Shown in pieces: positions 1,202 to 25,843 of a stretch of DNA of 64,000 bases; position 1 is the stretch's first letter; the number at the start of each line of letters is the position of its first letter. A program made the position numbers and the translations under genes. Location: assembly GCF_000179775.1 (NCBI RefSeq), contig NZ_AEEB01000022.1, positions 1-64,000 of the forward strand. The letters are read 5' to 3'. This DNA is from Ahrensia sp. R2A130 (GTDB taxonomy: Bacteria > Pseudomonadota > Alphaproteobacteria > Rhizobiales > Rhizobiaceae). The notes beneath the pieces were generated by a model that saw only the letters and a list, made by a program, of their open reading frames with translations, had not been told where the DNA came from and searched no databases.

Positions 1202-1948
1202 TTAATACGTTGCCCGGCCTCCGGAAATATCAAATACACCGCCGGTGGTGAAACTGTTTTCCTGCGAACACAGCCAAGCGATCATGGACGCTGCTTCGTC
1301 AAGTTCGAGGAAACGAGCGCGGGGAATTTTCGACAGCATGTATTGTATATGCTCCTCGCTCATTTGATCGAAAATTCGGGTGCGCGCGGCAGCAGGCGTG
1401 ACGCAGTTCACCGCCACATCCACATCTGCCATCTCTTTGCCGAGCGATTTCGTCAATCCGATTACGGCCGCTTTGGAGGACGAATAAGCCGACGCACCGG
1501 GATTACCCTCTTTGCCTGCGACTGAAGCAATGTTGACGATGCGGCCATAATTCTGCGCGCGCATTGAGGCGGCAACCACCTTGTTCACGTGGAAAGTACC
1601 AAGAAGATTGATCTCCACGATCTGCCGGAATTCTTCAACGTTGTAGTCCGCCACCGGCGCGTTAGAACCCGCGATGCCTGCCGCATTCACCAGTATGTCG
1701 ACGCGACCAAGGTCACGTATGGTGCGGGCGTAAGCCGCCTGAACACTGCTCCAATCAGCAACGTTGACCTCCACCGCTTTTGTATCGCCGTTCAAGTGGG
1801 ATGCGGTGCTCGCAGCAAGATCTATGTCCATGTCCCATAGGCTGAGCGTCGCTCCACCCTGTTTCAACCGCTCGGCCACGGCTTTTCCTATGCCCTGTGC
1901 TCCGCCGGTAACGACGGCCACACGACCATTGAAATCATAGTTGTTCAT
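1202..1948 (-). CDS. SDR-family NAD(P)-dependent oxidoreductase
   Basis: A 248-residue classical short-chain dehydrogenase. It has the N-terminal nucleotide-binding motif TGGAQGIG, the NAAG motif, the catalytic Ser in IASVAG and the YxxxK pair in SAYSSSKAA, plus a typical C-terminal TGGVFDISGG. The fold and length match FabG-like and sugar-alcohol dehydrogenases; the substrate cannot be read from sequence. It is the last gene of the long minus-strand catabolic run, 24 bp after the SMP-30/isochorismatase-like gene, so it probably oxidises or reduces an intermediate of that pathway. The ATG follows a GAGGGAC-type ribosome site. Confidence 0.9.
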   Translation of the reverse strand: MNNYDFNGRVAVVTGGAQGIGKAVAERLKQGGATLSLWDMDIDLAASTASHLNGDTKAVEVNVADWSSVQAAYARTIRDLGRVDILVNAAGIAGSNAPVADYNVEEFRQIVEINLLGTFHVNKVVAASMRAQNYGRIVNIASVAGKEGNPGASAYSSSKAAVIGLTKSLGKEMADVDVAVNCVTPAAARTRIFDQMSEEHIQYMLSKIPRARFLELDEAASMIAWLCSQENSFTTGGVFDISGGRATY

Positions 1949-1972
1949 GATCAGGTCCCTCTCGTTTGAAAT

Positions 1973-3613
1973 TTATCGAAGCGCGGCAATGACGGCATCA
2001 ACGTTGGTAACGGTAGATACGCTGGTCAGCCCAAATTCAATGGATGCGCGGTGCCATTCTGCGTTCATAGTCGAACAGGCATCTTCCGGCACGATGACAG
2101 TGTAACCCTTGTCGGCTCCTGTACGCGCCGTGTGCTCCACACTCATATTCGTCCACGAGCCTGTCGATATGATCGTGTCTCGAAACGCCCCCTTCACATA
2201 GTTCTCCAATCGGCCGGATTCCCATGCACTCATGGAAAGTTTTTCTACCACAAGATCGCCGGTTTGCGGCTCAAGGCCCGACACGGGTTGAACACCCCAC
2301 GTGCCCCGAACCAACGCATTGCTGTCGACCAAACCTTCCATAAGAGGCGAGTTTCGCCGCATTGCCGGATGTCCCGGCTCGGCGACCATCCACACATGAA
2401 TGATGAGGACACCGGCTGCCCGGCATGCCTCCGCCAGACGTTTTACGTTGGCAACAACGTTCTGCTCTCTCGCGTGATCCGGCGACCCGGTGTCAGCAAA
2501 TGCCCCACCGTCCATCATCACATCATTTTGCAAATCCTGAATGATGAGAACAGTGCGGTTGCCATCAAGTTGCAGGGAAGCATCATCAGCAGAAGCAACA
2601 TCGGTGGCTTGAGAAGCAGAAACAGGCGCGCCGCCTACTCCTGAAGACGGTGATGCGATAGGTGCGGCATCCTCATGCTCAGCCGGTGCATTCAAAGCAG
2701 CTGCCATGAACGGCTCACGGCGCGGCAAAACCTTGGTCTTGACCGCGTACAATGACGTGCTGGCGCAGATGAAAAGGGTGTCCCAATTGTTACCGCCCCA
2801 ATGCAGATTTGCAGCCATCTCCGGCACATTGAGCTTCCCGATCAAGCGACCGTGGAAATCGTAGACCCAAACACCACCCGGCGCTGTGACCCACACATTG
2901 CCTTTGGCATCCGCCTTCATCCCATCGGGCAACCCCGCCTTGTTTGGATCGCTGATACCAGAGGCAAACAGCCGTCCGTTTGTCAGTCGACCATCATTGG
3001 CAACATCAAACATGCGGATGTTAGCTTGGTCGGTATCGTTCACCCACATCCAACGCTGGCAGGGAGAGAAGCACAGACCATTAGGCTGGTTGAACATGTA
3101 GCGATCAGAGACCAATTGCGGTTCATCTCCGGGCCGATGATCCGTCGGCAGACGATAGACTCCCTGAAAACCCAATTCCGTCTCGCGAGGCACACCGAAA
3201 TGCTCCATCCGGCCATAAGTCGGGTCAGTAAAGTAAATCGAGCCGTCGTTTCGCACGATCACATCGTTGGGCGAGTTCAACTCTTTGCCTTCGAAATGAG
3301 AGCACAGCACCTCTCGCGTGCCATCGGGCCGGAACCGCACCAGCGACGAGGTGGAATGCTCGCACACGATCAAATTAAGCGCAGCATCGTAGGTCATGCC
3401 GTTGCCTTTATTGGACGGACGCTGAACCTCGTGAACGCCGGAACTGTCCCACAATCGGCGCACATCACCTGGCATGTCGGAGAACAACAGATGATGCTCG
3501 ACCGGATGCCAGATCGGCCCTTCCGTAAAGATGAACCCTGTACCCAACTGTTCGACAGGCGCGTGCTCGTCGATCAACTCATGGAACGATGGATGGATTG
3601 CTTCATGGTTCAT
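1973..3613 (-). CDS. SMP-30/gluconolactonase domain fused to isochorismatase-like domain
   Basis: A 546-residue two-domain protein. Residues about 1-310 are an SMP-30/gluconolactonase six-bladed propeller: FTEGPIW carries the metal-binding Glu, followed by NSPNDV, FTDPTYG, NQPNG and GLPDGMK with the metal Asp. A flexible Ala/Ser-rich linker follows. Residues about 345-546 are an isochorismatase-like cysteine hydrolase fold with the catalytic Asp (IIQDLQND) and Lys (VEKLSMS). The nucleophile Cys of the family motif TNxC is Ser here (TNMSVEHT, about residue 491), so this half may be inactive or altered. The start was chosen at 3613 because AAGGAGG precedes that ATG at good spacing; an upstream start would overlap the preceding gene. 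The likely role is lactone hydrolysis. Confidence 0.85.
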   Translation of the reverse strand: MNHEAIHPSFHELIDEHAPVEQLGTGFIFTEGPIWHPVEHHLLFSDMPGDVRRLWDSSGVHEVQRPSNKGNGMTYDAALNLIVCEHSTSSLVRFRPDGTREVLCSHFEGKELNSPNDVIVRNDGSIYFTDPTYGRMEHFGVPRETELGFQGVYRLPTDHRPGDEPQLVSDRYMFNQPNGLCFSPCQRWMWVNDTDQANIRMFDVANDGRLTNGRLFASGISDPNKAGLPDGMKADAKGNVWVTAPGGVWVYDFHGRLIGKLNVPEMAANLHWGGNNWDTLFICASTSLYAVKTKVLPRREPFMAAALNAPAEHEDAAPIASPSSGVGGAPVSASQATDVASADDASLQLDGNRTVLIIQDLQNDVMMDGGAFADTGSPDHAREQNVVANVKRLAEACRAAGVLIIHVWMVAEPGHPAMRRNSPLMEGLVDSNALVRGTWGVQPVSGLEPQTGDLVVEKLSMSAWESGRLENYVKGAFRDTIISTGSWTNMSVEHTARTGADKGYTVIVPEDACSTMNAEWHRASIEFGLTSVSTVTNVDAVIAALR

Positions 3614-3632
3614 ATGACCGTCCTCCTTCGCG

Positions 3633-4481
3633 TTACATCGGGAACCAGTCACGGTCCGGCACTGTCTCTGTTATCGGTCCCGGCACCTGCATACCGAGGC
3701 GGCCAACGACCTTCTGGTTCTGGATTTTTGCAGGCTTATCGTGGATCGGCAGCAAGAACGTATAATTGTTCAGCAACTTCTTGATCGCCCCCTTCTCCTC
3801 GCGTTTCGTCTGCGAATGGTTTCCTGTCACGCGTGGCTCCATGTAATTGTTGGTCATCACATGGTTCACGATCTGATCGTTGAAATCGTAGATCACATCA
3901 CCGCAGATGCAGGCGAGGCCTTCGGCGGTATCCACGATTACATTCATTGATCCTTCTGTGTGCGCCCCTGCCGCCTCACACCAAACGCCGGGAATGATTT
4001 CTTCAGCACCGGTGATTTCCAGATCAAGAAACCGCATAGCCTCATCTTCATAGATGCGGTCCACCAAGTGTTTGATGTCCGGCTTCGGGTATTGCGGATA
4101 CATGATGCCCGAGACTGAAAATTCCATCTCCCGCCGGTTCAAACATACCGTTGTGTTCATTGGGAATTTGTCGTCCTGACCGGCGTGATCAATGTGCAGA
4201 TGTGTGTGCAAAATGTACCTGATATCGCCAAGTTTCAGCCCGTGTTTGGCCAGCTGGTTTTCAATCAGGTTGTCGTGGAATTGCAGCCCGCGCATCCCGA
4301 GCGACTCCATGATCGCGTTGTCACGATAACCGGTATCCACCAACACAGGGTAAGTGCCACCGAGGATCAGAAAGCCGTAAACAGGCACACGCCTCGCGCG
4401 ACCACATTCGTGACCGAGCACGAGAAAGCTTGTTTCCAGTTCGATGTCACCATAGTCGAGCACGTGAATTTCGAGTGCCAT
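3633..4481 (-). CDS. Metallo-beta-lactamase-fold hydrolase, AHL-lactonase-like
   Basis: A 282-residue protein with the complete dinuclear metal set: HLHIDH at residues 94-99, a later His in GAHTEGS, Asp in CGDVIYD and His in LPIHDKP. This arrangement is that of the lactonase branch of the superfamily (AttM/BlcC/AiiA-like). No luxI/luxR genes are nearby and it sits among two other lactone-type hydrolases, so a catabolic lactonase or esterase is a more natural reading than quorum quenching; that is inference. It begins 23 bp after the amidohydrolase stop and ends 19 bp before the SMP-30 fusion start, in the same transcription unit. Confidence 0.88.
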   Translation of the reverse strand: MALEIHVLDYGDIELETSFLVLGHECGRARRVPVYGFLILGGTYPVLVDTGYRDNAIMESLGMRGLQFHDNLIENQLAKHGLKLGDIRYILHTHLHIDHAGQDDKFPMNTTVCLNRREMEFSVSGIMYPQYPKPDIKHLVDRIYEDEAMRFLDLEITGAEEIIPGVWCEAAGAHTEGSMNVIVDTAEGLACICGDVIYDFNDQIVNHVMTNNYMEPRVTGNHSQTKREEKGAIKKLLNNYTFLLPIHDKPAKIQNQKVVGRLGMQVPGPITETVPDRDWFPM

Positions 4482-4504
4482 GTCGGTCCCTCCCAGGATG
4501 TGAT

Positions 4505-5380
4505 TCAGATGCGGTAAACCCGCGCTGCCGTGTCGTTAAAAATTGATTTTTGTCGTGCCTTGGACAGGCCTGCCGTCGCGTTGCGAAAGGCCGCGAACAA
4601 ATCGCCATACGAGGTCCAAAGTTTTTCGATGGGGTAGTTGGAACCGTAAAGACAGCGCGTCGCACCGAAGATGCGAACGGAATTCTCCACCATTTCCGCA
4701 ACGAAAGCTGGATCGTTGCGATGAATGAACGTGCCGAAGGCAGATAGCTTGCAAACGACGTTCTTGGATTTGGCGAGACGCTTCATTCCCGCTTCCCAGT
4801 TGCGCCAACCTTCTGGAGTCGTGTCCTCCAACATGCCCGCGTGCTGCAAAATGAAAGTGACGTCAGGGCAAGACTCTGCAAGACCGGCAGCATCCACCAT
4901 CTGCGCCTCGAACACCTGTAAATCGAACGACCATCCGTAGTCGGCCAGATGCGCAATATTACGCCGTACTGTCGGGTCAGCGGGCAGACCTGCATGGGGT
5001 GCGAAACGATAGAGTGGGTTCGGATGCCAATGCAGTTGCTGACGAATGCCCCGCATCAGCGGGTAGTCCTTCAGCTTGTCGAACTGCAGACGAACGTCAT
5101 CCACCGTAAAATCCGCATAGCCGACGATAGCGTGGGGCCAGCCCGTGCGGTCGGCCTCCGACTGCACCCAAGCTACTTCATCAGCTGCCCAATTCGGAGC
5201 CCAGTTGGCCTGCACGTAAACCGACTTTTCGATACCTGTACCTTCGATGTCGGTGAGAAACTCCTCGATTGGATAGTCACGCTTAATCGCGGCATAGGGG
5301 CCAAAAATGCGTGGTTGCTCAGGGCCGAGCAACCAAGGCAAGTCCTTCTGCCGCCAGATGTGATGATGCGCATCAATCAT
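4505..5380 (-). CDS. Amidohydrolase_2 family metal-dependent hydrolase
   Basis: A 291-residue TIM-barrel hydrolase opening with the metal motif DAHHHIW and carrying the barrel-strand His in ILQHAG and the late YGSNYPIE, where the family has its catalytic Asp region (Asp is replaced by Asn in this copy of the SD/SN-P motif). Relatives include L-fuconolactone, galactarolactone and 2-pyrone-4,6-dicarboxylate lactonases. It overlaps the VWA gene by ATGA, so the two are probably translationally coupled. The substrate is unknown; lactone hydrolysis is the best guess given its neighbours. Confidence 0.85.
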   Translation of the reverse strand: MIDAHHHIWRQKDLPWLLGPEQPRIFGPYAAIKRDYPIEEFLTDIEGTGIEKSVYVQANWAPNWAADEVAWVQSEADRTGWPHAIVGYADFTVDDVRLQFDKLKDYPLMRGIRQQLHWHPNPLYRFAPHAGLPADPTVRRNIAHLADYGWSFDLQVFEAQMVDAAGLAESCPDVTFILQHAGMLEDTTPEGWRNWEAGMKRLAKSKNVVCKLSAFGTFIHRNDPAFVAEMVENSVRIFGATRCLYGSNYPIEKLWTSYGDLFAAFRNATAGLSKARQKSIFNDTAARVYRI

Positions 5381-6558
5381 GCCGCACTCCTCGACTGAAT
5401 CTGGGTCTGCGGCCGTGGCTGGCGATGACGGGCAAGGGACAGGATATGCTCGGCTACGGCTGCAATGGAGCTGCCGTCAGCAAGCGTGTTCAAGTACTGT
5501 TGCGACGCAGACAGCGCTTCAGTGCGCGGAGCGAATTCAGGATCAGCAGCAAGGGGTGATAGCCAGTCCAATCGCCACGCCATACGCGAGATACGAGCAA
5601 CGCAATCAACCATCGTGTTTGGCTCGCCGCGTTCCAGACCGTCAGAAAGAACCACCACCGCAGCGCCCCGCAAAGCACCCGCAAAACGTGGAACAGCAAG
5701 AAGGGCCGCCAAGGCATCACCTATTCGGGTGCCACCATCAAAGTCGGAAACAAGACCCGCGACCGTATCAAGGGCGCGTTGGGTTTCCTTGATCCGCAAT
5801 GCCGGCGTTACCCGGGTGAGCCTGGTTCCAAGCGTGAAAACTTCAGCGCGATCAGCCGCCTGTACCACCGCATGGGCCAATCGCATGGTCGGCTCGGACT
5901 GCTGCGCCATTGATCCGGAAACATCCACCAACAAAACAAGCGGACGTTGTCGGGTCTTTCGCCTAGTAGTGGGCAGTTTAAGGAGCTCTCCGTCACGGCG
6001 CACCGCCTCCCGCAAGGCACGACGCATATCGAGCCTGTCGCCGCGATTGGCTGGCCGACGCCTGTACGACAACCGCCTCGGCAAAAGTTTAGGAGCGTTT
6101 CGTGTAAAATGGCGCAGAACTTCAGCACTATCGAAGCCCACAAATTCACGCTGCGATAGTGCTTCTGATCGAGATGCCTCCGCGCCGACTTCCGTATCGT
6201 CGCTATCCACTTCAACATCACGACTTGTATCGCGCGGGTCGAGCGCCTGCATTTCGTCTTCATCATCTCCGGTAGCCGGAGCACTTATGGCCTGATCAAG
6301 GAAAAAAGCGCGAAACAGCGCATCGTAAATCGACCATCGTGCACGAGGAATGGCAAGCATCGCGATACCAGCCTTGTGAATGTCGTTGATATCGCGCGGC
6401 CCCAGAAGCCCCACCGCTTCAATGAAGCCAGTGGTTTGTTCAGGCGCGATGGCAAAGCCGTTGTTGCGCAGCACATGGGCGAAATCGACGAAGGCGCGAG
6501 TTGCCTTTGGCATGATAGACGGCATGGTGGATGCCATTGCGGAACCGAGCGCGTTCAT
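5377..6558 (-). CDS. VWA-domain protein, CoxE-like
   Basis: A 393-residue protein with a basic/acidic middle and a C-terminal von Willebrand A domain. The MIDAS metal site is intact: DVSGS at about residues 212-216, a Thr in GGTRIG and Asp in LSDGLE. This is the CoxE/MoxR-associated family that partners a MoxR AAA+ ATPase in maturing the active site of form I CO dehydrogenase and related molybdenum hydroxylases. Here the ATPase gene lies directly upstream and overlaps by ATGA, matching the known coxD-coxE pairing. The acidic patch at about residues 98-125 is a likely disordered insert. Confidence 0.85.
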   Translation of the reverse strand: MNALGSAMASTMPSIMPKATRAFVDFAHVLRNNGFAIAPEQTTGFIEAVGLLGPRDINDIHKAGIAMLAIPRARWSIYDALFRAFFLDQAISAPATGDDEDEMQALDPRDTSRDVEVDSDDTEVGAEASRSEALSQREFVGFDSAEVLRHFTRNAPKLLPRRLSYRRRPANRGDRLDMRRALREAVRRDGELLKLPTTRRKTRQRPLVLLVDVSGSMAQQSEPTMRLAHAVVQAADRAEVFTLGTRLTRVTPALRIKETQRALDTVAGLVSDFDGGTRIGDALAALLAVPRFAGALRGAAVVVLSDGLERGEPNTMVDCVARISRMAWRLDWLSPLAADPEFAPRTEALSASQQYLNTLADGSSIAAVAEHILSLARHRQPRPQTQIQSRSAA

Positions 6559-7436
6559 GCCGCTGCTCCCTGCAACAGGTCGTCTAAACGCGGTGCCACG
6601 AAATTCAGATCGTCATGGTCCTTCAGTGCCACGCCGATAGCCTTGCGAAACGCATCCGGCCACGGATCGCCTTGACCATGAAGAAGCGTGACGGCTTCCG
6701 ACCATTCGACGGTCTCTGCAACGCCCGGCGGCTTCACCAACGGCTCCTGCCGCAAGCGCCCGACCGCTGCCACGACAGCATCTGCGGTTGCACGCGCAAC
6801 TGAACTCGCACGAGCCATGACGATTTCGGCTTCCAGCTCAGGCTCAGGGTAGTCAATCCAGTGATAAACGCAGCGGCGACGAAGAGCTTCGTGCAGGTCC
6901 CGCGTACGGTTGGATGTGAGCAACACAACCGGCGGCGCGATTGCGCGCACCGTACCTGTCTCAGGAATTGAGATCGAGAAGTCGGAGAGAAACTCCAAGA
7001 GGAACGCCTCGAACTCCTGGTCGGCACGATCAATTTCATCGATCAGCAACACACAATCACTTGGATGGCGAAGCGCTTCCAGCATGGGTCGTTCCAGCAG
7101 GAATTCGTCTGCATAGATGTTGATGTATTCATCGCCCGCCTGTCGGATCGCCAGCATCTGGCGGGGGTAGTTCCACTCGTAAAGCGCAGCTGACGCATCA
7201 ATGCCCTCAAAGCATTGCAGGCGGACCACACGCCGCCCCAAGACCGCACCAATTGCCTTTGCAGCCTCCGTTTTGCCAACGCCGGGGGCGCCCTCCAGCA
7301 ACAACGGCTTACCCAATGCAAGGGACAGATAGCCTGCGGTCGACAGCCGTTCATCGGCAATATATTGCGCACCAGTCAGCGCAGCCTGCAGCGCCTGCGC
7401 AGAGTCTATGCCGACAATGGAGCGCTGCACGGCCAT
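6555..7436 (-). CDS. MoxR-family AAA+ ATPase, CoxD-like
   Basis: A 293-residue AAA+ ATPase with Walker A GAPGVGKT (residues 49-56), Walker B VLLIDEIDRA, sensor-1 LLTSNRTRDL and the MoxR-type C-terminal lid. CoxD in Oligotropha is a membrane-associated ATPase needed to build the CO dehydrogenase active site; by analogy this protein would remodel or mature the Mo hydroxylase encoded just upstream. It starts 4 bp after the stop of the second large-subunit gene and overlaps the VWA gene, so all three are likely made together. Confidence 0.88.
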   Translation of the reverse strand: MAVQRSIVGIDSAQALQAALTGAQYIADERLSTAGYLSLALGKPLLLEGAPGVGKTEAAKAIGAVLGRRVVRLQCFEGIDASAALYEWNYPRQMLAIRQAGDEYINIYADEFLLERPMLEALRHPSDCVLLIDEIDRADQEFEAFLLEFLSDFSISIPETGTVRAIAPPVVLLTSNRTRDLHEALRRRCVYHWIDYPEPELEAEIVMARASSVARATADAVVAAVGRLRQEPLVKPPGVAETVEWSEAVTLLHGQGDPWPDAFRKAIGVALKDHDDLNFVAPRLDDLLQGAAA

Positions 7437-7440
7437 CAGA

Positions 7441-8472
7441 TCATGCCCCCCAATTCATACCTTGAGGACGCGCGCCACCGTTGGCCTGCATACCGCGCAA
7501 AATCTTTTCCGGCGTAATCGGCAAACTATCGCAGCGAACGCCGACAGCGTTGTATACTGCGTTTGCTACGGCTGGCAGCAGCGGGTTGGCACACATCTCA
7601 CCCGGCCCTTTACCGCCGAATGGCGCACCTTCAGCAGGCCGCTCCAAAATTGCCAGATGGTGCGGAACCACCTGCCCCGGTCCCGGCATCAGATACTGAT
7701 TGAAGTCGGTAGGGCCATGCTTGCGGTCCGGGTAATAAGGCTCAGTTGTTTCGTAAAGCGCATGGGAAATACCCATCCATGCACCGCCAACGAGCTGTTG
7801 TTCCACCATTTTGGGATTCAGCGCGCGGCCAACTTCGTAGGCCGAATTTACCTCAAGCACTTCGACATCACCGGTTTCGTCATCGACCTGTAGATCGAGC
7901 ACGACGGCAGCATGAGCGAAGCAAGATACTGGTGTTTGCTCGCCTGTTTCTGGATCTACATCGGACATGGGAACAAGGAATATACCTCGTCCGGAAAGCG
8001 TACGTCCCTGTTCGAATTGTGCGGCAAGTGCTGTGTCCATGACGGTGATTGAACGCGACGGCGCGCCCTTCACATGGATATTGCCCTTGCCATCCGTCTC
8101 AAGGTCGCTGGCGGAAACTTCCAGTTCTTCAGCAGCGGCTTCCAACATGACGCCCCGTGCTTCTTGCGCTGCGGCAATAACGGCGTTGCCCATGCGGTGG
8201 GTGCCACGCGATGCAAACGATCCCATATCATGCGGGCCGGTGTCGCTATCAGCGGTATCCACATAGACGTCTTCAATTGGTACGCCCAGCGTCTCCGCCG
8301 CGATCTGACGGGTGACGCTTTTCATACCCTGCCCCAGATCGATAGCAGACAACGTAACCATGAACTTGCCGTCTGGCGTGGAATGCACCAGCGCTTGTGA
8401 AGGGTCGCCGCCAAGGTTCATGCCGATAGGATAGTTGATCGCCGCAAAGCCGCGGCCCTTGTGCCAAGTCAT
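7441..8472 (-). CDS. Molybdenum hydroxylase large subunit, C-terminal half (split CoxL-like)
   Basis: A 343-residue protein matching only the second molybdopterin-binding half of xanthine-oxidase-family large subunits. It has GQGMKSVTRQIAAE, the DTADSDTGPHDMGSFASR stretch, and near the end GKGPGEM, which holds the equivalent of the catalytic Glu. The normal family member is one chain of about 750-800 residues; here the other half is the gene directly upstream, overlapping by ATGA. The break falls at the junction between the two Mo-cofactor-binding domains, so an intact enzyme could assemble from two chains. It is not a decayed gene: both parts are in frame and motif-complete. Confidence 0.88.
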   Translation of the reverse strand: MTWHKGRGFAAINYPIGMNLGGDPSQALVHSTPDGKFMVTLSAIDLGQGMKSVTRQIAAETLGVPIEDVYVDTADSDTGPHDMGSFASRGTHRMGNAVIAAAQEARGVMLEAAAEELEVSASDLETDGKGNIHVKGAPSRSITVMDTALAAQFEQGRTLSGRGIFLVPMSDVDPETGEQTPVSCFAHAAVVLDLQVDDETGDVEVLEVNSAYEVGRALNPKMVEQQLVGGAWMGISHALYETTEPYYPDRKHGPTDFNQYLMPGPGQVVPHHLAILERPAEGAPFGGKGPGEMCANPLLPAVANAVYNAVGVRCDSLPITPEKILRGMQANGGARPQGMNWGA

Positions 8473-12095: not shown

Positions 12096-12096
12096 C

Positions 12097-15875: not shown

Positions 15876-15914
15876 GGTCTTATCCTCCTACCGTTTGGCC
15901 GAGTTGGTTCTCGA

Positions 15915-16745
15915 TCAACGGGTGCGTCCAATTGATTTGAATTTCCGCGTTTGCTCGGTGAGCGCGATTTCTGTCGGCAGGCGTTCCATTGAGGATGCGC
16001 CGTAGAAGCCGTGGCAATATTTGGTATTTTGCAGAACGAATTCTGCGTCTTCGGGCATCGCCACAGGTCCGCCGTGGACCAAGACCAATGCATCGGGGTT
16101 CACGTCCAGCGCAGCTTGTGCCCACTCATCGGTAAGCGCAGGAGCCTCCTCCAAAGTGCAGCCGGTTTCGGCCCCAATGGAACCACCTGTGGTCAGACCC
16201 AGATGGACGACAATGATGTCTGCACCCGCTTTGGCCATGGCCGTCGCGTCGTCGGTGGAGAACACGTAGGGCGTCGTCAGCATGTCCTTGCCTGCCGCCA
16301 TTTCGATCATGTCGACTTCAAGCGCGTAGGACATACCGGTCTCTTCCAAATTGGCTCGGAAGGTGCCGTCGATCAGGCCTACAGTTGGAAAGTTCTGGAC
16401 GCCGGAGAAACCGGCTGCCTTCACCTCCTCAAGGAACTTGTCCATCAGCCGGAACGGATCAGAGGCACAAACGCCGGCCAGCACAGGCGTGTTCCTGACC
16501 ACCGGTAGTACTTCGCCAGCCATCTCCATGACGACAGCATTCGCGTCGCCATAGGGCATCAAACCCGCAAGCGAGCCGCGGCCCGCCATGCGGTAACGAC
16601 CCGAATTGTAGATGACGATAAGGTCAATACCCCCGGCTTCCTCGCATTTAGCGGAAAGACCGGTACCGGCGCCTCCGCCAATAATCGGCTCACCCGCATC
16701 GCGCATGGTTCGAAACCGGCTCATCAATTGAGAACGATCATGCAT
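15915..16745 (-). CDS. TIM-barrel protein of the PEP_hydrolase/Tm-1 C-terminal family
   Basis: A 276-residue protein resembling the TIM-barrel family annotated as phosphoenolpyruvate-hydrolase-like, the same domain type as the C-terminal half of tomato Tm-1. Visible motifs are [50 protein letters not shown] and [10 protein letters not shown]. The ATG at 16745 has AAGGTAGG upstream; a TTG two codons earlier overlaps the preceding stop (TTGA) and is the alternative start. It directly follows the gene carrying the other Tm-1-type domain. The reaction is not established to my knowledge. Confidence 0.8.
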
Positions 16746-16747
16746 GT

Positions 16748-18934: not shown

Positions 18935-19733
18935 GCCCGCCTCCGAGATAGAGCGCCTGAACTTCCGGATCTTCTTCGATTTCGGCAGGCTTCCCTTCTT
19001 TAAAAATGCGCCCGTTATGCATCATCGAAACCTGCTCCGAGACGCGCAAAGCCACGTCCATATCGTGTTCGATGATGATGTAACCCATGTGACCAGGTAG
19101 GCCCGTCAGGATCTCGATCAGTTCGGATCGTTCGGTCGGAGAAAGACCTGCAGCGGGCTCGTCGAACAGAATGAACCGTGGAGCACCAGAAAGCGCCATT
19201 GCGATTTCCAGCTGCCGTTGTTGGCCATAGGCCAACTCGTTGACAGGCCTCAGGCGGATGTCTTCCAAGTGGACAACGCGGATAAGATCTTCCGCAGTTG
19301 CCATCAATGCATCGTTACGGCGTGGACGCAGGAACGAGAACCGGTTCCGCGAAACACCGCAGCAAGCAAGATAGATATTGTCCAGCACGCTAAGGCCGTT
19401 GAACAACAGTGAAATTTGATAGGTCCGTCGCAGGCCTCTGCGGATGCGTTCGTGAGCAGCGAACTCGGTTACGTCCTCACCAAAGAAGCGTACGGTCCCA
19501 CCGCTTGGAAGGAAGTCGCCGGTAATGCAGTTGAACAGTGTCGTTTTACCAGCACCGTTAGAGCCAAGTACGGCTCGTCGTTCGCCCGGCTTCACCGACA
19601 AAGTTATATCTTCAAGTGCCGCCAATGCGCCAAAATATTTGGATACACCGCGTAATTCCAAGGCGTTTGATGTGCCGGTCGCTTCCAACCGATCGGAAAC
19701 ACTTCTACCGGGTGAAAGGGCTGTAACGCTCAT
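18927..19733 (-). CDS. LivG-type ABC transporter ATPase
   Basis: A 268-residue ATPase of the hydrophobic/branched-chain amino-acid transporter family. Walker A is GSNGAGKT, Walker B is [13 protein letters not shown], and the LivG-specific insert with ..[21 protein letters not shown] is present. The family signature LSGGQ appears as the variant [12 protein letters not shown], common in LivG. It overlaps livM by ATGA and the LivF fusion by 8 bp, so both ATPases pair with the two permeases upstream. Confidence 0.93.
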
Positions 19734-20809
19734 GACCCCTCAACCGTGTTGGCGCCTGTCAGCGGATCGCGGCCACGTCCGGCGCGCCATTTATCCCAAA
19801 GGCCTAACAGGCCATCCGGCGAGAAGAATACAATGAGCAAAAACGATATGCCGACCAGCAATTGAAAACGGTCACCCGACAGACCCAGCGAAGTGAGGAT
19901 GTCGATCGCAAATGTTTTGAGAACCACATAAACGATCGCTCCAATAAACGGACCAATGGGGCGTCCCAATCCTCCAATCACCGCGATAACCAGAATGTCG
20001 ATCACTGGTCCTGTGCCTGCGGTTCCCGGCGAAATTTGAGAGGATTGCCACGTCAACAAAATGCCGCCGATGCCTGCTATGAAAGCCGCAAACGCATGAG
20101 CTGCAACACGGTGTGCGTTGACGTTAAAGCCGAGAGCAGCCATGCGGCGAGGGTTGTCTCTTACCCCCTGCAACGCCAAGCCAAACGGCGCGCGCGACAG
20201 ATACAGCACAGCCAAATAGGCCAGCGTGGCAAAGAACAATGACAGGTAATAGAACGGAATATCCGCTCGCCAATCCACGCCAAACAATTTCGGAGGGAAG
20301 ACGCCGTTAAAGCCGGAAAACCCGTTGAAGACGACGTAGTTCTGGCGGGTGAAATAGAAGAACGCTGACGCAATCGCCAACGTTATCATGATCGTATAAA
20401 TACCCTCTGTCCGAACAGCGAGCGCACCGATGGCCGTTCCAAACAAAACGGCAATAATCAACGCCAAAGGAACGGCGACCCACCACGGCCAGCCAAGCGA
20501 TACGGCATCGATAGAGCTGACGCCGAAAATCGCCACCATGTAACCAGCAACAGCTGCGATGGTCAGTTGCGCCAGCGAAACCATTCCGCCGTAACCGCCT
20601 AAGAACATCAGCGACAACGCGATCATGCCAAGTACAAATGACCAACCAAATATCTGGTTGAGCACGAAGCCCGAAGCGATGGCAGGCATGATGAGCAGGA
20701 GCGCGGCAACGACCCAATAGGCAACCGGAATCCGTTCGTACCAAGCCGTTTCCAAACGACCATCTACGACGAACTCGGAAGATCCATTGGCGTGCTCAAC
20801 AACACTCAT
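19730..20809 (-). CDS. LivM-type branched-chain amino-acid ABC permease
   Basis: A 359-residue polytopic membrane protein with about nine hydrophobic segments and the LivM-type motif QGVRDNPRRMAALGFNVNAHRV, which contacts the ATPase. A soluble leader of about 30 residues precedes the first membrane span. It starts just after livH (3 bp between them) and overlaps livG by ATGA. Together with LivH it forms the import channel; the cargo is probably a small organic acid or amide rather than leucine given the surrounding catabolic genes. Confidence 0.93.
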   Translation of the reverse strand: MSVVEHANGSSEFVVDGRLETAWYERIPVAYWVVAALLLIMPAIASGFVLNQIFGWSFVLGMIALSLMFLGGYGGMVSLAQLTIAAVAGYMVAIFGVSSIDAVSLGWPWWVAVPLALIIAVLFGTAIGALAVRTEGIYTIMITLAIASAFFYFTRQNYVVFNGFSGFNGVFPPKLFGVDWRADIPFYYLSLFFATLAYLAVLYLSRAPFGLALQGVRDNPRRMAALGFNVNAHRVAAHAFAAFIAGIGGILLTWQSSQISPGTAGTGPVIDILVIAVIGGLGRPIGPFIGAIVYVVLKTFAIDILTSLGLSGDRFQLLVGISFLLIVFFSPDGLLGLWDKWRAGRGRDPLTGANTVEGS

Positions 20810-20812
20810 GGT

Positions 20813-21826
20813 TCAAGCTCTCCCCATCAGCCCTTGCGGGCGGAAAGCGAGAACAACGACCATGATGAGGAAAGTTAGAACGACGGCATAAGTCGGGAAG
20901 TAGACGGAGCCGAACTGCTCCGCACACCCAATAATAATCGCGCCAATTGCAGCGCCAGTGATTGACCCCATACCGCCAACAATAACCACCACGAGAGACG
21001 CCAACAGGAAACGAATGTCTTCGCCCGGCGCGACTGTTTGGAAGGTGCCACCAACCACGCCTGCAAGACCCGCAAGGCCTGCACCGAAGGCAAAAACACC
21101 GACAAACACCCACTGAATGCGCGCGCCTGTTGCCGACAACATGTCACGATCATCCACACCCGCGCGGATCAACATTCCAATCTGCGTACGGTTCAGCAGC
21201 AACCACATGGCGACGCCAATGACGATTGCAGCTGCAAGGATCACGAGCCGCACAACGGGGTATTTCAGGAATATTGGATCACCCGTCGACCGGCTTAAAC
21301 CGGTGACAAAAAAGGTTTCGATAGGGCCGGATAACCAGCCTGGAGGAGTGATATTGTAAAAATCGCCACCCCAGTACCAAAGCATGAGATCAGCCATCAC
21401 AATCGATATGCCTATGGTCACAAGCGTTTGGCGTAAGTCTTCGCCCTCCATGCGCCGGAAGACGAAAAACTGAAGCAGAATGCCAATTGCGCCCACGGTG
21501 ATGAAGGCGACAGGAAATGCAAGAAGCCATGAGCCGGTAGCGTTCGATACGCTGTAGCCGATGTAACCACCCAGCAGATAAAGCGATCCGTGCGCCAGAT
21601 TGACGTTGCGCATAAGACCGAAGATCAAGGTGAAACCGGAGGCTACCAGGAAATAGAGACCACCCAACGTCACCCCGTTAAAGAGGGCGTTGAGGAATAT
21701 CTTCTTGCGTCCGATGGCATCCTTTAGCCATTCCGGCCAAACCGCGAATATCATCCACAGCAGAACAGCGACGACCACGAATGTGATCGCAGACCAAACC
21801 GGGTGACGTTCGATAAACCGCCTCAA
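20813..21826 (-). CDS. LivH-type branched-chain amino-acid ABC permease
   Basis: A 337-residue permease with the LivH core (LFNGVTLGGLYFLVASGFTLIFG..RNVNLAHGSLYLLGGYIGY) and the late loop RAGVDDRDMLSATG. Translation appears to start at a TTG at 21826 that overlaps the stop of a short upstream reading frame (TTGA); no ATG is available until after the first hydrophobic segment. The first 25-30 residues add an extra membrane span (SAITFVVVAVLLWMIFAVW) before the conserved core. Confidence 0.88.
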   Translation of the reverse strand: MRRFIERHPVWSAITFVVVAVLLWMIFAVWPEWLKDAIGRKKIFLNALFNGVTLGGLYFLVASGFTLIFGLMRNVNLAHGSLYLLGGYIGYSVSNATGSWLLAFPVAFITVGAIGILLQFFVFRRMEGEDLRQTLVTIGISIVMADLMLWYWGGDFYNITPPGWLSGPIETFFVTGLSRSTGDPIFLKYPVVRLVILAAAIVIGVAMWLLLNRTQIGMLIRAGVDDRDMLSATGARIQWVFVGVFAFGAGLAGLAGVVGGTFQTVAPGEDIRFLLASLVVVIVGGMGSITGAAIGAIIIGCAEQFGSVYFPTYAVVLTFLIMVVVLAFRPQGLMGRA

Positions 21827-21888
21827 GACGCTTCGCGACGCGCAAAGGCTCGTAAGGCACGTTTATCCGTGTCTACCTTCCAAGCCAT
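21823..21888 (-). CDS. 21-codon reading frame preceding livH (possible leader or coupled N-terminus)
   Basis: An ATG at 21888 has an excellent ribosome site (GGGAGGACGCA) and opens a 21-residue frame rich in Arg, Lys and Ala, whose TGA overlaps the TTG start of livH. livH itself has no good ribosome site of its own. Either this is a short peptide that couples ribosomes into livH, or the two frames are one N-terminus separated by a frameshift (real or a sequence error). Both options fit; I cannot separate them here. Confidence 0.45.
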   Translation of the reverse strand: MAWKVDTDKRALRAFARREAS

Positions 21889-21974
21889 TGCGTCCTCCCA
21901 GACTATCTCATTGCAGCACACCATCTTGGCGCGGTGTCAGCTTTTTTAGAGACTAGGAAGGGATGCTCGGGATC

Positions 21975-21994
21975 GTGATACCCCAGAGTATCAC
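21975..21994. promoter_or_regulatory. Perfect dyad between araC-type gene and livH
   Basis: GTGATAC and GTATCAC face each other across six bases. The site lies about 90 bp upstream of the livH leader frame and 95 bp after the regulator's stop, where an operator of the transport/catabolic run would be expected. There is no T tract, so it is less likely to be a terminator. Which protein binds is unknown; AraC-family proteins usually prefer direct repeats. Confidence 0.4.
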
Positions 21995-22042
21995 GGGGTG
22001 GCGCATCATCGCCAAATGACAGTTGAGGTTTGGCGGCACAAA

Positions 22043-22068
22043 CGACAACTAGGTTTTAAGAGTTGTCG
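22043..22068. promoter_or_regulatory. Second inverted repeat downstream of araC-type gene
   Basis: Eight-base arms CGACAACT / AGTTGTCG are separated by ten AT-rich bases, starting about 22 bp after the regulator's stop codon. It could be a weak terminator for the regulator gene or a second operator for livH. No run of T follows on the minus strand. Confidence 0.35.
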
Positions 22069-22089
22069 ACCATCAGTTGCGATACCCGC

Positions 22090-22917
22090 TCATGCGATAT
22101 GGGCAACACGCCTGTAGTCGCTCGGTGGAATGCCCACATTGGTGGTGAAGAAACGAGTGAAACTTGCTTGGGATGCAAACCCCAAATCGTAGGCAATGTC
22201 CGTCACCGTCGAACGCGTCCCCATAAGGTCGTCAATCGCCTGCTCGGCTCGTAGTGTGTTGAGATACAGGTTTGGCGTGATGCCCATCTGCTTCTTGAAA
22301 AGTTTGAAAAAATGTGGCCGCGACAGACCAGATTCCTTTGCCAGCCAGTCGATCTGCATGTCTTCGCGAAAACGCTGCTGCATGAGCCCGATTGAGCGAC
22401 GAACACGGAAATCGAGAAACCCTCTGCCGAACCGGCTAGCAGTGTCATCTCGCTGGCCGCAGGTCCAACTCTGCTCATAACATTGCCGTGTGGTTTCGAA
22501 GAGAAACGGATCGAATAGGTCTGAACTTTCTTGATCCATCAGCAACGAGGTAAGGCGGTTTACCCAACTGGAAACCACAGTGGTGACGTCAATGCGGGCG
22601 CTGCCAAATGCGAGTGCGAAATCGTTGGATCGGTTCTGCTCCAGAAACCAGTTTGGCTTCACATAGAGCGTCAACGTGATGAGCGGATTAGCTGGATCTT
22701 CGATCTCGAAATTATGCGGTGCCCATGGCGATACAGCCACGCCACGGTTTCGATCTATGGGGTGAACCTCGTCACCAATCCGAACGCGCCCTGCACCACC
22801 ATCCAGCCAGAAGATGAGATGCGCTTCGCGATGCGCGTGCGTAATTATAGGTTTGTCCAACTCGTAAAGAGCTGCACGGCCAAACTCGCCGTGATGGACG
22901 GAAATTGCTCCACTCAT
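22090..22917 (-). CDS. AraC-family transcriptional regulator with cupin sensor domain
   Basis: A 275-residue regulator. The N-terminal half is an AraC-type cupin (HAHREAHLIFWLDGGAG, VSPWAPHNFEI). The C-terminal half has the two helix-turn-helix units, WLAKESGLSRPHFFKLFKKQ and TDIAYDLGFASQASFTRFF, ending in the usual PSDYRR. The ATG at 22917 was chosen because GGGAGGAAT lies just upstream. It sits on the same strand between the aldehyde dehydrogenase and livH, so it is the natural candidate to sense the imported compound and switch the locus. Confidence 0.9.
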   Translation of the reverse strand: MSGAISVHHGEFGRAALYELDKPIITHAHREAHLIFWLDGGAGRVRIGDEVHPIDRNRGVAVSPWAPHNFEIEDPANPLITLTLYVKPNWFLEQNRSNDFALAFGSARIDVTTVVSSWVNRLTSLLMDQESSDLFDPFLFETTRQCYEQSWTCGQRDDTASRFGRGFLDFRVRRSIGLMQQRFREDMQIDWLAKESGLSRPHFFKLFKKQMGITPNLYLNTLRAEQAIDDLMGTRSTVTDIAYDLGFASQASFTRFFTTNVGIPPSDYRRVAHIA

Positions 22918-23062
22918 GTATTCCTCCCACGCCAGCGGCTCCCAAACGTGCCAGCGAACCAACAGCATCGGGCGCAGCGCCGCTAAACGTCAAGGTTGCG
23001 GAGGGACAATGCGATCACAAGGCATGAAAGGAGACTTTGAGGTATGGTAATTTTTGCAAGAG

Positions 23063-24502
23063 TTACGGCTCCACATAGGCCGTCTTTAGAACAGTGTAGA
23101 ACTCCGCCGCATGGCGACCTTGTTCTCTGGGCCCCATGCTGGAAGCCTTTGTTCCGCCAAAGGGAACATGATAATCTACCCCTGCCGTTGGCAGGTTTAC
23201 CATCACCATACCAGCGCGAACAGAACGTCGGAAATGGGACGCATATTTCAAGCTGGTGGTGCAAATTCCAGCGCACAGACCAAACTGCGTATCATTAGCC
23301 ACATATAGCGCCTCTTCATAATCGCGCACGCGCATCACGGAGGCAACCGGCCCGAAGACCTCTTCACGGTTGATCGTCATTTGTGGCGATGTATCCGTCA
23401 CCAGCGCTGGCGTCATGTAGAAACCGGGACGTCCACACTCGACACGTTCACCACCACCTCGAATGGAACCGCCCTCGCCTCGTGCGGTTTCGATGTAGCG
23501 AAGATTGTTGGCCAACTGCTGTTGATCGACGACCGGGCCGATAGTCGTATCATTATCAAGCGCGTGGCCAACCTTGAGGCCACGCATCCGCTCCAGACAT
23601 CCTTCTACAAAACGAGAATGAACGGACTCGGTGACGATCAACCGAGACGATGCGGTGCAACGTTGCCCGGTCGAGAAGAAGGCGCCGTCAATGGCACAAT
23701 CGATTGCCTGATCGATGTCAGCGTCATCCAGCACAACCAGAGGATTCTTACCCCCCATTTCAAGCTGAACCCGTCTCATATGTTTTGCACAAGCAGCAGC
23801 TACTCGAGCTCCCGTGGCCTGCGAACCGGTAAATGAGATCGCATCAATCCGAGGGTCTTCAAGCATCGCAGCACCAACGATAGACCCTGCCCCCATAACA
23901 AGATTAAACACACCATCGGGAAGACCGGCGCGCTGCAAAATATCGGCAAGCATCCATGCGCTGCCTGGCACCAGCTCTGCAGGTTTCATGACAACGGCAT
24001 TGCCATAACAAAGCGCAGGAGCAACCTTCCACGCCGGAATTGCCATCGGGTAGTTCCAAGGCGTGATAATGCCCACCACTCCCACCGGCTCGCGGGTAAC
24101 GTCGACTTCAACGCCAGGGCGCAACGAGGCAAGCTTTTCGCCACTGATGCGCAAAGCCTCGCCTGCAAAGTAAAGAAATATCTGGCCGGCGCGCCTCGTT
24201 TCCGCAACCGCCTCGCGACGGGTCTTGCCCTCTTCGCGTGCCAGTAACTCGCCGAGCTCATCGCTGCGGTTGAGTATCTCGTTGCCTGCCTGCGCTAGAA
24301 TATCATGACGCGCCTGAGGCGTGGTTTCGCCCCATCGCGGTTGTGCTGCACATGCCGCTTCAATGGCATCGCGCATATCGTCGGCATCTCCCTGCGCGTA
24401 ATGGCCAATAATCTCATTAGTATCAGACGGATTAACGTTGGGGCTTGAACGCCCGCCGCTCCTCCATTCGCCTGCAATCAGCATACCTTTAACGTCAGTC
24501 AT
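23063..24502 (-). CDS. Aldehyde dehydrogenase family protein
   Basis: A 479-residue NAD(P)-dependent aldehyde dehydrogenase. The general base Glu is in QLEMGGKNP and the nucleophile Cys in FFSTGQRCTASS; TPWNYP and FTGSQATG mark the cofactor fold. The opening INPSDTNEIIG-like segment resembles the 2-oxoglutarate-semialdehyde dehydrogenase (KGSADH/YcbD) group, which would fit a sugar-acid or lactone pathway, but that assignment is tentative. The ATG at 24502 has GGAG upstream; a GTG at 24520 is the alternative. Confidence 0.9.
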   Translation of the reverse strand: MTDVKGMLIAGEWRSGGRSSPNVNPSDTNEIIGHYAQGDADDMRDAIEAACAAQPRWGETTPQARHDILAQAGNEILNRSDELGELLAREEGKTRREAVAETRRAGQIFLYFAGEALRISGEKLASLRPGVEVDVTREPVGVVGIITPWNYPMAIPAWKVAPALCYGNAVVMKPAELVPGSAWMLADILQRAGLPDGVFNLVMGAGSIVGAAMLEDPRIDAISFTGSQATGARVAAACAKHMRRVQLEMGGKNPLVVLDDADIDQAIDCAIDGAFFSTGQRCTASSRLIVTESVHSRFVEGCLERMRGLKVGHALDNDTTIGPVVDQQQLANNLRYIETARGEGGSIRGGGERVECGRPGFYMTPALVTDTSPQMTINREEVFGPVASVMRVRDYEEALYVANDTQFGLCAGICTTSLKYASHFRRSVRAGMVMVNLPTAGVDYHVPFGGTKASSMGPREQGRHAAEFYTVLKTAYVEP

Positions 24503-24521
24503 ATCGCGATATCGCTCCACT

Positions 24522-24562
24522 AAAACAAAAGGGCCCCGAACCGGGAGTAGGTTCGGAGCCCA
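24522..24562 (-). terminator. Hairpin terminator after the binding-protein gene
   Basis: On the minus strand GGGCTCCGAACC and GGTTCGGGGCCC form a 12-bp stem (one mismatch), followed by TTTTGTTTT. It lies 25 bp after the stop of the binding-protein gene and just upstream of the aldehyde dehydrogenase start, so it should let the binding protein be made in excess over the rest of the locus. Confidence 0.85.
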
Positions 24563-24586
24563 AAGAGCTGCGTAAGATCTAAGTGA

Positions 24587-25843
24587 TCAGTCGCATTTGA
24601 GAATGTCGCGCGATGGAAGTCCCAAAGCCCGAAATTCTGCTTCGTCCATGCCAAGTGTCTGGTTCACATTTTCCGCCATAGCGACCATGTTATTGGCCAA
24701 CGTGCCGTCGGCTTGTTCAACCACTTCGGTCACGAAATTCGTGCCGATAGCCTGACGGTTACCGTCCAACTTGATCATGCCATTGGGCGCGTCGAGTTCT
24801 AGTGAACCGAGGCAGCCACGAAAGGCCGCGTGGCCGTCGGACAGATCACCGTTAACGGTGTTAAGGCACTGCAGCGCAGCATTAGTGGCATTGTAGTAAC
24901 CGGTGGCCAGCAACGACGGGCTGGGGAAGCGTTTCTCAGGCGGGAAAGCGTCCTGATAAGCCTTCACATAGGCCTGCCATTTCGGGTTATCCCAAGTGTC
25001 AGCCTGTGGTCCGGATGATGGCGTGCCGATCAGCGCGTTCTTGGCGTTACCTTTTGCAGAAAGCACCGTGCCATCAACCATGATCGAACCACCGATCAGG
25101 TTCGCGTCACCGCCAGCCTGTTGGTACTGGTTGAGGAAGTTGACGGCATCACCGCCACCCAAGCCCAGATAGATCGCATCCACATCGTCTGGAAGCGATG
25201 CAATGATCGAACCGAAATCCTTAGTACCAAGCGGGACCCACTGGCGTTCAACGATCTTACCACCGGCTTTGCAGTATCCCTGCGCGAAGCCGAGGAAGTT
25301 GGTGTAGGCGAAGGAATAGTCTTCCGCGACCGTCGCAACGGTCTTCCAACCTTTCTTGTCGAACACATACTCACCAAGACCAGCACCCCATTGCGCACCG
25401 TCCATATTGAAGCGGAAAAAGTTTTCAGCAGGGTCCACAAAGGTCGTTTCCTGCGCACCAGAAATGCCGTTGATGATCGTTGTTTGAGGTTGCGTCTTGG
25501 CGTAGTCGCGCAAAGCAATACCTTCAGAACCTGAAAGCGGGCCAATGACAAAATCGACCTTGTCCTGCTCCACCAGTTTGCGGGCACCGCGCACGGCACT
25601 GTCCGGGCTGGCGTCTGTCGACTGAATAATCAGTTCGATCTCTTTGCCGGCAGCTTTACCATCCGCCTGTTTCATTGCGGTCTGAAGACCACGAATTCCG
25701 TCCTCACCAAGGACAGTGTAGGTACCTTCCAGCGTGGCAAGTACGCCAATTTTGATTTTGTTGCTGTGGGCATCGGCCAGTGCAGCGCTTGTTGTCAGCG
25801 CAAGTGCTGCAACGGAAACGCTCGTCAAAAGAAACTTTTTCAT
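24587..25843 (-). CDS. ABC transporter periplasmic substrate-binding protein, LivJ/LivK type
   Basis: A 418-residue protein with a clear signal peptide (MKKFLLTSVSVAALALTTSA...ALA) and the type I periplasmic binding fold of the branched-chain amino-acid family (KIGVLATLEGTYTVLGEDG, DFVIGPLSGSEGIALRDYA). It should deliver cargo to the LivHMGF-type transporter downstream. RBS GGGAGGATTGA precedes the ATG. It is the first gene of the minus-strand run and has its own terminator, matching the high-copy role of binding proteins. Confidence 0.93.
   Translation of the reverse strand: MKKFLLTSVSVAALALTTSAALADAHSNKIKIGVLATLEGTYTVLGEDGIRGLQTAMKQADGKAAGKEIELIIQSTDASPDSAVRGARKLVEQDKVDFVIGPLSGSEGIALRDYAKTQPQTTIINGISGAQETTFVDPAENFFRFNMDGAQWGAGLGEYVFDKKGWKTVATVAEDYSFAYTNFLGFAQGYCKAGGKIVERQWVPLGTKDFGSIIASLPDDVDAIYLGLGGGDAVNFLNQYQQAGGDANLIGGSIMVDGTVLSAKGNAKNALIGTPSSGPQADTWDNPKWQAYVKAYQDAFPPEKRFPSPSLLATGYYNATNAALQCLNTVNGDLSDGHAAFRGCLGSLELDAPNGMIKLDGNRQAIGTNFVTEVVEQADGTLANNMVAMAENVNQTLGMDEAEFRALGLPSRDILKCD

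Follow-up and report, generated by a model that had tools for sequence, protein, structure and literature searches.

A conserved alphaproteobacterial gene cluster that combines an importer fused to a UPF0261 domain, a flotillin and a split molybdenum hydroxylase

The first 64,000 nucleotides (nt) of contig NZ_AEEB01000022.1 of Ahrensia sp. R2A130, termed here the window, carry 21 minus-strand genes at positions 1202–25843. In order of transcription they code for a solute-binding protein (SBP), an aldehyde dehydrogenase (ALDH), an AraC-family regulator, LivH, LivM, LivG, a fusion of LivF to a UPF0261 domain (LivF-UPF0261), a TIM-barrel protein of the phosphoenolpyruvate (PEP) hydrolase-like type (PEPH), a flotillin, two SRPBCC proteins, the FAD, [2Fe-2S], large and medium molybdopterin subunits of a molybdenum (Mo) hydroxylase, a CoxD-type AAA+ ATPase, a CoxE-type VWA protein, an amidohydrolase-2, a metallo-beta-lactamase-fold (MBL) hydrolase, a fusion of SGL and isochorismatase-like domains (SGL-isochorismatase) and a short-chain dehydrogenase (SDR). 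They form a real and conserved catabolic cluster that may serve a single small compound, probably a hydroxylated aromatic or heteroaromatic. An earlier note, made from the nucleotide sequence alone, had listed about 21 genes with their domains in this region and had remarked on frequent stop/start overlaps. Profile matches bear out the gene list, and 13 of the 17 junctions from LivH to SDR overlap by 1–8 nt or are separated by no more than 4 nt. These figures use gene starts corrected by homology for SRPBCC2 (12236 to 12095), the large Mo subunit (10433 to 10334) and SGL-isochorismatase (3652 to 3613), all of which are ATG. The gaps between SBP, ALDH, AraC and LivH are 66, 94 and 263 nt, and a single transcript for all 21 genes is therefore not established.

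Conservation was assessed in the best 80 named loci of 501 reported relatives; these loci come chiefly from Hyphomicrobiales and Rhodobacterales and include two metagenome-assembled genomes titled Gammaproteobacteria (L106, L109). Counts per gene are same-strand matches in those loci of the set that have sufficient flank. The medium Mo gene and the genes that follow lie beyond the reach of this set, so they were scored only in 15 longer loci with extended downstream sequence (13 genomes, a Yoonia plasmid and a Shinella plasmid), selected since the fusion and the following genes had already been seen there.

The importer is of the HAAT (hydrophobic amino acid uptake) type, with an SBP, two BPD_transp_2 permeases and two ATPases in one locus. 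These are the Peripla_BP_6 SBP (24587–25843; PF13458, 4e-51; 63/66 loci), the LivH-type permease (20813–21826, start uncertain) and the LivM-type permease (19730–20809), both with PF02653 and matched in 74/74 loci, the LivG-type ATPase (18927–19733; PF00005; 77/77 loci) and the LivF-type ATPase (PF00005), which occupies residues ~1–235 of the product of 16748–18934. The composition is that of HAAT/Liv-Urt importers, with the difference that the second ATPase carries UPF0261. The closest PDB sequences to the SBP are 4zpj and then 4ey3, 4evq, 4f06 and 4evs; the latter four we take to be proteins crystallised with hydroxybenzoate-type acids. The AraC-family regulator (22090–22968; PF12833, 8e-22; 66/70 loci) has an N-terminal half with a weak cupin match (PF07883, below cut-off).

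The UPF0261 domain of the fusion (residues 323–717) matches PF06792 and PF23189 above cut-off and has the fold of the Tm-1 N-domain. An AlphaFold2 model of residues 318–728, with a confidence score (pLDDT) of 87.9, matches both the Tm-1 N-domain (3wrw) and Saro_1862 (9mpy). According to its PDB title the latter is a UPF0261 domain protein of Novosphingobium aromaticivorans with acetovanillone bound. This membership, which the earlier note lacked, is the most informative lead on the cluster. The likeness is one of sequence and fold: both proteins belong to the same family and a profile alignment gives them the motifs DTK..E.RF, GGS, VST.ASG, H..G.GG and HNPQ.T..RT in common, whereas the solved chain of 406 residues is UPF0261 alone and the window domain is fused to an ABC ATPase and accompanied by PEPH and SRPBCC proteins. 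From the PDB title and one citation, Saro_1862 is probably MarK, the aromatic kinase of the acetovanillone route. A family member with acetovanillone bound suggests that an aromatic substrate is activated at the expense of ATP, and in the LivF-UPF0261 fusion import is thus likely coupled to the phosphorylation of a hydroxylated aromatic or heteroaromatic. Note that public annotation names the LivF-UPF0261 proteins of L154:19992-22154 and L153:17947-20199 "ABC transporter permease", which hides both the ATPase and UPF0261.

PEPH (15915–16751; PF09370, 2.6e-128; 2p10, E 2.5e-116; 70/72 loci) is the homologue of the other half of Tm-1. Plant Tm-1 and Tm-1L join UPF0261 and a TIM-barrel domain in one protein (PMC5028733). 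The window encodes both halves by the adjacent genes 16748–18934 and 15915–16751 instead of in one chain, and its UPF0261 is fused to LivF instead of to the TIM barrel. With an importer ATPase as its fusion partner, the Tm-1 N-domain family, known to many from plant virus resistance, gains a testable biochemical role. After 2p10, the fold neighbours of the PEPH model (pLDDT 78.6) are ketopantoate hydroxymethyltransferase, methylisocitrate lyase and other TIM barrels. They only suggest carbon–carbon bond chemistry, because model confidence is middling and TIM barrels match many enzymes.

The flotillin (12537–15875, 1112 residues; PF01145 and PF15975; 70/70 loci) has Band_7/SPFH and Flot domains, a hydrophobic N-terminal segment and a rod with a 44-residue repeat. 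The rod had been called giant, which suits the window protein; over 96 uncut sequences including the window's, length ranges from 562 (Variovorax) to 1187 residues and is not a fixed trait. It is the single PF15975 match in the window's genome, so there is no separate housekeeping flotillin of that family of which it would be a duplicate. Cone-shaped membrane cages built of flotillins have been reported (PMC11260169). The cluster offers a candidate case of a bacterial flotillin with a dedicated set of metabolic partners.

SRPBCC1 (12097–12537; PF10604, 2.2e-23; 70/70 loci) and SRPBCC2 (11634–12095; PF10604; 69/69 loci) match PF10604 only and not the COXG model PF06240. As a control, an SRPBCC protein encoded beside FAD and FeS subunits in an Azospirillum plasmid locus (L157) scores 58.5 bits to PF06240. 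SRPBCC1 is 44–56% identical to SRPBCC proteins encoded behind UPF0261 and PEPH in four other operons. The two belong to another SRPBCC family, whose members accompany UPF0261/TIM-barrel genes elsewhere. The identification of these genes as CoxG-type thus fails, and with it a strict CoxG-quinone shuttle. Of the earlier proposal that an SPFH protein and CoxG organise the pathway at the membrane, what stands is the presence of a flotillin in every class I locus with enough flank (class I includes the 15 longer loci) and in all eight loci examined of a second class, described below.

The Mo hydroxylase consists of an FAD subunit (10837–11637; PF00941, PF03450; 66/67 loci), a [2Fe-2S] subunit (10334–10837; PF00111, PF01799; 64/65 loci), a large molybdopterin subunit of 621 residues (8469–10334; PF01315, PF02738; 63/63 loci) and a medium molybdopterin subunit (7441–8472; PF20256; 15/15 longer loci). 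They are followed by the CoxD-type AAA+ ATPase (6555–7436; PF00004/PF07728) and the CoxE-type VWA protein (5377–6558; PF05762, 1.2e-43), each matched in 15/15 longer loci. The molybdopterin subunit is split into a MoCoBD_1 and a MoCoBD_2 protein and the FAD and FeS subunits are separate, in the manner of nicotinate dehydrogenase, an enzyme active on nicotinate that contains labile selenium. The best PDB matches of the large and medium subunits are 3hrd_A and 3hrd_B. The window enzyme has the same large/medium division and separate FAD and FeS subunits as this Eubacterium nicotinate dehydrogenase; it differs in the Pro-rich C-terminal tail of its large subunit and in a gene run that also holds CoxD/CoxE-type, importer, flotillin and UPF0261 genes. 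The catalytic Glu position of the medium subunit is E in 75/75 sequences and the Cys residues of the three motifs checked in the [2Fe-2S] subunit are kept in 83/83.

Aerobic CO dehydrogenase has an active-site CSFR loop in CoxL. As the earlier note had stated, this loop is absent from the Mo subunit, and identity with CO dehydrogenase is rejected. Compared with the cox cluster (PMC4240915), the window has the M, S, L, D and E-type genes in common and differs by the missing CSFR loop, a split L and many added genes. None of the 21 genes was recognised as CoxF- or CoxG-type, CoxF having been sought in these only. Also counted among the nearest known systems is HpdA, the 3-hydroxypyridine dehydrogenase of Ensifer adhaerens HP1 (PMC11962113), with the difference that the SRPBCC proteins of the window are not CoxG.

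Beyond its conserved core the large Mo subunit bears a Pro/Ala-rich tail, which ends SPFISGRRR in the window and typically RFISGTRRR or RFSSLSGFRRR elsewhere, with the conserved end pattern F..SG.RRR. Among the 82 tails read from 90 matches (the rest being cut or weak, and some loci having been fetched twice so that not all are independent), 79 including the window's end in RRR and one in RKR; the exceptions are the truncated frame of L039 and a Thermomicrobium protein. The end is found in none of the 30 paralogues read out of 65 matches in 17 genomes without the fusion, nor in any of the other 19 cluster genes examined (all except SDR). Two of these paralogues run off the end of their stretch, and another, L165, looks split yet is tail-less. 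A docking peptide is plausible. A search of the window's own genome with the peptide pattern at the DNA level gave nothing, as expected, since the pattern is one residue longer than the tail encoded in the window; the result is thus uninformative on other carriers.

Three hydrolase genes follow, as first described, and they encode four hydrolase domains rather than three lactonase-type enzymes since the third gene is the SGL-isochorismatase fusion. Motifs were checked in 16 sequences that include the window's own, against the usual SGL ligands and the usual amidohydrolase Asp. The amidohydrolase-2 (4505–5380; PF04909, 1.4e-38; 15/15 longer loci) is fuconolactonase-like, its match to the fuconolactonase model being far below cut-off. 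The MBL-fold, lactonase-like hydrolase (3633–4481; PF00753; 14/15 longer loci) has HxHxDH and the further metal ligands of MBL-fold lactonases in 16/16 and matches the NCBIfam lactonase models far below their cut-offs. In the SGL (gluconolactonase-like) and isochorismatase-like fusion (1973–3613; PF08450 and PF00857; 15/15 longer loci), the SGL metal ligands are invariant in 16/16 and the isochorismatase domain has its best PDB match in 3kl2, a putative isochorismatase, with RutB-type amide hydrolases coming next.

ALDH and SDR, previously counted as members, are both present in the window, yet ALDH is optional and SDR lies outside the conserved set. ALDH (23063–24520; PF00171, 1.2e-161) is matched in 31/70 loci and is nearest to the 2,5-dioxovalerate/alpha-ketoglutarate semialdehyde dehydrogenase models of NCBIfam, below their cut-offs. 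The SDR gene, last in the run (1202–1948; PF00106), has a match in 5/15 longer loci, three of which exceed 50% identity. In two loci titled Hoeflea (L088:3250-3993, L101:3308-4051) an SDR 69–71% identical to that of the window stands beside SBP on the opposite strand.

Conservation of the neighbours together was the test set by the earlier note for its view of one uptake, oxidation and hydrolysis pathway, and the cluster passes it. Gene order of the window is kept in 79 of the best 80 loci and all 15 longer loci are collinear with it, with AraC through SGL-isochorismatase complete in 13 of them and PEPH present in 14. Twelve other genes of the window, searched as controls across 132 loci, gave three weak matches in all. 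The sole exception in order, L039 (Labrenzia sp. DG1229), has its Mo genes damaged or missing: neither an FAD nor an FeS subunit turned up there and the large Mo frame is short, which points to a damaged cluster or an assembly fault. Pairwise divergence of eight genes over 37 loci correlates with r of 0.51–0.91 for the 28 gene pairs (0/200 permutations each), part of which is due to shared ancestry of the organisms.

Among 297 genomes sampled from the order, 52 carry the LivF-UPF0261 fusion, the window's genome being one of them; two of the matches are cut at a contig edge and one extends only from residue 90. At E <= 1e-170 it is found in 14 of 398 genomes sampled from the phylum, namely 11 from this order, again with the window's genome, and three others of the same class. 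A set of about 20 genes common to many marine and soil Alphaproteobacteria suggests a widespread natural compound. Among the papers listed for UPF0261, Tm-1-like proteins, SPFH/flotillin and PEP hydrolase, no title or opening of an abstract described this cluster. The carriers include L109 and L106, metagenome-assembled genomes titled Arenicellales and Granulosicoccus that have the fusion and neighbouring cluster genes, which suggests horizontal transfer or binning errors. A record titled Oceanobacillus (L081) holds the cluster, with a fusion 69% identical to that of the window, and is likely mislabelled or contaminated.

Variant loci show which parts occur separately. Class II (G209, G131, G087, G092, G050, G085, G247 and a Variovorax plasmid) keeps the importer, fusion, flotillin and SRPBCC pair, and none of these eight loci has a Mo hydroxylase match within the available sequence. 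The frame of their second SRPBCC is 502–558 residues long in 7/8 loci and 242 in G085. Two of these frames, from Variovorax and G247, were searched, and both are fusions with a quinone-reductase-type medium-chain dehydrogenase (MDR), matched below the model's cut-off; these fusions keep open a looser redox role for SRPBCC proteins. In G100 and G262 the available sequence holds AraC, permeases, ATPase, fusion and PEPH only, with no flotillin, SRPBCC or Mo matches.

Outside class I, 10 plasmid loci were examined (12 were opened in all, of 206 records with a match), and each of their 11 UPF0261 genes is followed by PEPH. Importer genes lie on the same strand directly upstream, or with one gene between, in six of the ten (L152, L153, L155, L156, L158, L160), and several of the pairs follow sugar-type or BMP-type importers. 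An SRPBCC gene stands next to the pair in four loci (L155–L158). UPF0261 and PEPH thus seem to be a pair deployed in several settings, often with ABC importers, of which the window cluster is one elaborate version. In Thermomicrobium roseum LivF, UPF0261 and PEPH are separate neighbouring genes, the stretch has no flotillin and an unsplit Mo hydroxylase is found further along; there (L152:20643-30081) UPF0261/PEPH is followed by PEP/pyruvate-binding, PEP-utilizing, FAH, FAD-binding and unsplit Mo hydroxylase genes. The PEP/pyruvate-binding and PEP-utilizing proteins are, as we take them, reminiscent of two-component phenol kinases.

Taken as a whole, the evidence supports import and one common pathway well. 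The best current guess for the substrate is an aromatic or heteroaromatic compound that the fused UPF0261 phosphorylates, and the flotillin may organise the pathway at the membrane. In the proposed pathway the SBP, LivHMG and the LivF-UPF0261 ATPase would bring the compound in. The UPF0261 domain on the importer ATPase would then phosphorylate or ATP-activate it on arrival and so trap it, with the adjacent PEPH as its partner, perhaps as a carbon–carbon lyase or hydrolase. As a third step the flotillin may act as a membrane scaffold at which the two SRPBCC proteins hold or pass on a hydrophobic intermediate or a redox partner. Hydroxylation by the split Mo hydroxylase would come next; this enzyme would be matured by the CoxD/CoxE-type proteins and possibly docked by the C-terminal peptide of its large subunit. 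Finally the amidohydrolase, the MBL hydrolase and SGL-isochorismatase would open lactone, amide or ester intermediates and ALDH or SDR, where present, would finish an aldehyde or alcohol. This full pathway, for a single small compound that is probably a hydroxylated aromatic or heteroaromatic, is given a probability of about 0.5. A bolder version, with import and phosphorylation as a single act, processing on or within a flotillin cage at the inner membrane, a Mo hydroxylase docked there by a disordered tail and its C-terminal peptide, and descent of plant Tm-1 from the soluble part of the system, is improbable; were it true, an importer ATPase with its own kinase would be the ABC counterpart of sugar group translocation. 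To our knowledge none of the routes for vitamin B6, caffeine, nicotinate or hydantoin matches the whole gene list.

Several observations weigh against the proposed pathway. Identity of the window UPF0261 to Saro_1862 is ~34%, so substrate and even reaction may differ; Saro_1862 is only probably MarK, and any contact of the flotillin with another cluster product is hypothetical. Isochorismatase-superfamily amidohydrolases use an Asp-Lys-Cys triad, of which Asp and Lys are kept and the usual Cys position is Ser in 16/16, and the amidohydrolase-2 has the motif GSN in 16/16; these two hydrolases may therefore depart from textbook chemistry. PEPH is missing in two of the 72 loci with flank (L073, L087) and has no match in G157 (class I) or in G209 and G247 (class II). 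Matches in Yoonia are partial, with coverage of 66% for LivG, 56% for PEPH and 47% for FeS, and these three genes are absent from the gene table of the Yoonia record; this cluster copy may be damaged. Four of the plasmid loci (L157, L159, L161, L162) have no same-strand importer directly upstream of UPF0261, and the nearby transport genes of L162 are of the metal type. As to docking, a codon tally limited to 72 distinct RRR-ending tails (the frequency of RRR itself rests on the 82-sequence reading) finds AGG at the first two of the three Arg positions in 53 and 56 of them, and AGG AGG is likely the Shine-Dalgarno sequence of the next gene. The tail F, S-G and last Arg are encoded by several synonymous codons, so only these argue for selection at the protein level. 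The idea of RRR as a pure targeting peptide was dropped since RR overlaps the likely Shine-Dalgarno sequence.

A route without phosphorylation, in which a pyridine- or pyrimidine-like ring is hydroxylated by the Mo enzyme and opened to an amide or lactone while UPF0261 and the TIM barrel do another job such as ring or side-chain carbon–carbon cleavage, is possible although rather unlikely. Nicotinate dehydrogenase as the nearest solved structure to both Mo halves, the RutB-type matches of the isochorismatase domain after 3kl2, and the Azospirillum UPF0261/PEPH/SRPBCC trio near FAD/FeS genes of Mo hydroxylase type, amidase and HpxZ genes all agree with it. It has to contend with the lack of a recognised ring-opening oxygenase among the 21 genes, an isochorismatase domain without the catalytic Cys and a UPF0261 relative solved with a phenolic ketone.

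A similar, tentative standing is given to the view of two modules, by which importer, UPF0261, TIM barrel, flotillin and SRPBCC proteins feed various oxidoreductases, the Mo hydroxylase being one customer among them, and no selection acts on a whole pathway. Such a division would account for class II, for the MDR fusions of two of its second SRPBCC proteins and for G100 and G262, which hold the AraC-to-PEPH part. The class I loci speak for the opposite, since all 15 longer ones (preselected, as stated) hold the Mo hydroxylase and the hydrolases (MBL in 14), and divergence of the Mo genes goes along with that of the importer.

Oxidation of CO or another trace gas, to which the order of the CoxM/S/L/D/E-type genes might point, is very improbable given the absence of a CSFR loop and of a PF06240 CoxG, with no CoxF-type gene recognised among the 21, and given the split large subunit, the full importer for an organic solute and the four hydrolase domains. 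The possibility that unrelated genes came to lie together on the same strand by chance can practically be dismissed in view of conserved content and order, near-absent control genes and co-divergence.

On the flanks of the cluster, the genes upstream of SBP (abhydrolase, FecR, SlipAM and CHASE2 cyclase) gave one weak match in relatives and look unrelated to it. The first three form a minus-strand run at 26234–29468 that adjoins the plus-strand CHASE2-cyclase gene (29591–31846). Between AraC and LivH two inverted repeats lie at 21970–22070; they were not found in the 13 relatives compared, of which L109 has a different one. Enriched upstream 8-mers are probably AraC coding sequence, because the 450-nt stretch extends into the AraC gene. 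An Rfam search of 1–30000 returned nothing at gathering threshold. Just past the last gene, a strong bidirectional terminator-like stem of 13 pairs at 991–1020 has the most pairs among the 31 sites listed for 700–20000.

Two observations concern the plasmid loci. In Azospirillum the PF06240 CoxG gene (L157:926-1615) adjoins genes for FAD and FeS subunits of an enzyme of the Mo hydroxylase type. Amidase and HpxZ genes accompany them, and the CoxG gene lies ~7.4 kb from the UPF0261-PEPH-SRPBCC trio. Open reading frames of ~578–616 residues adjoin UPF0261/PEPH at L160:12853-14682, L156:11550-13400, L158:11536-13272 and L157:7112-8938; the one in L160 is annotated as a sigma-54 Fis regulator and the others as members of the PEP hydrolase family, and they are possibly PEPH-domain sensors fused to sigma-54 activators.

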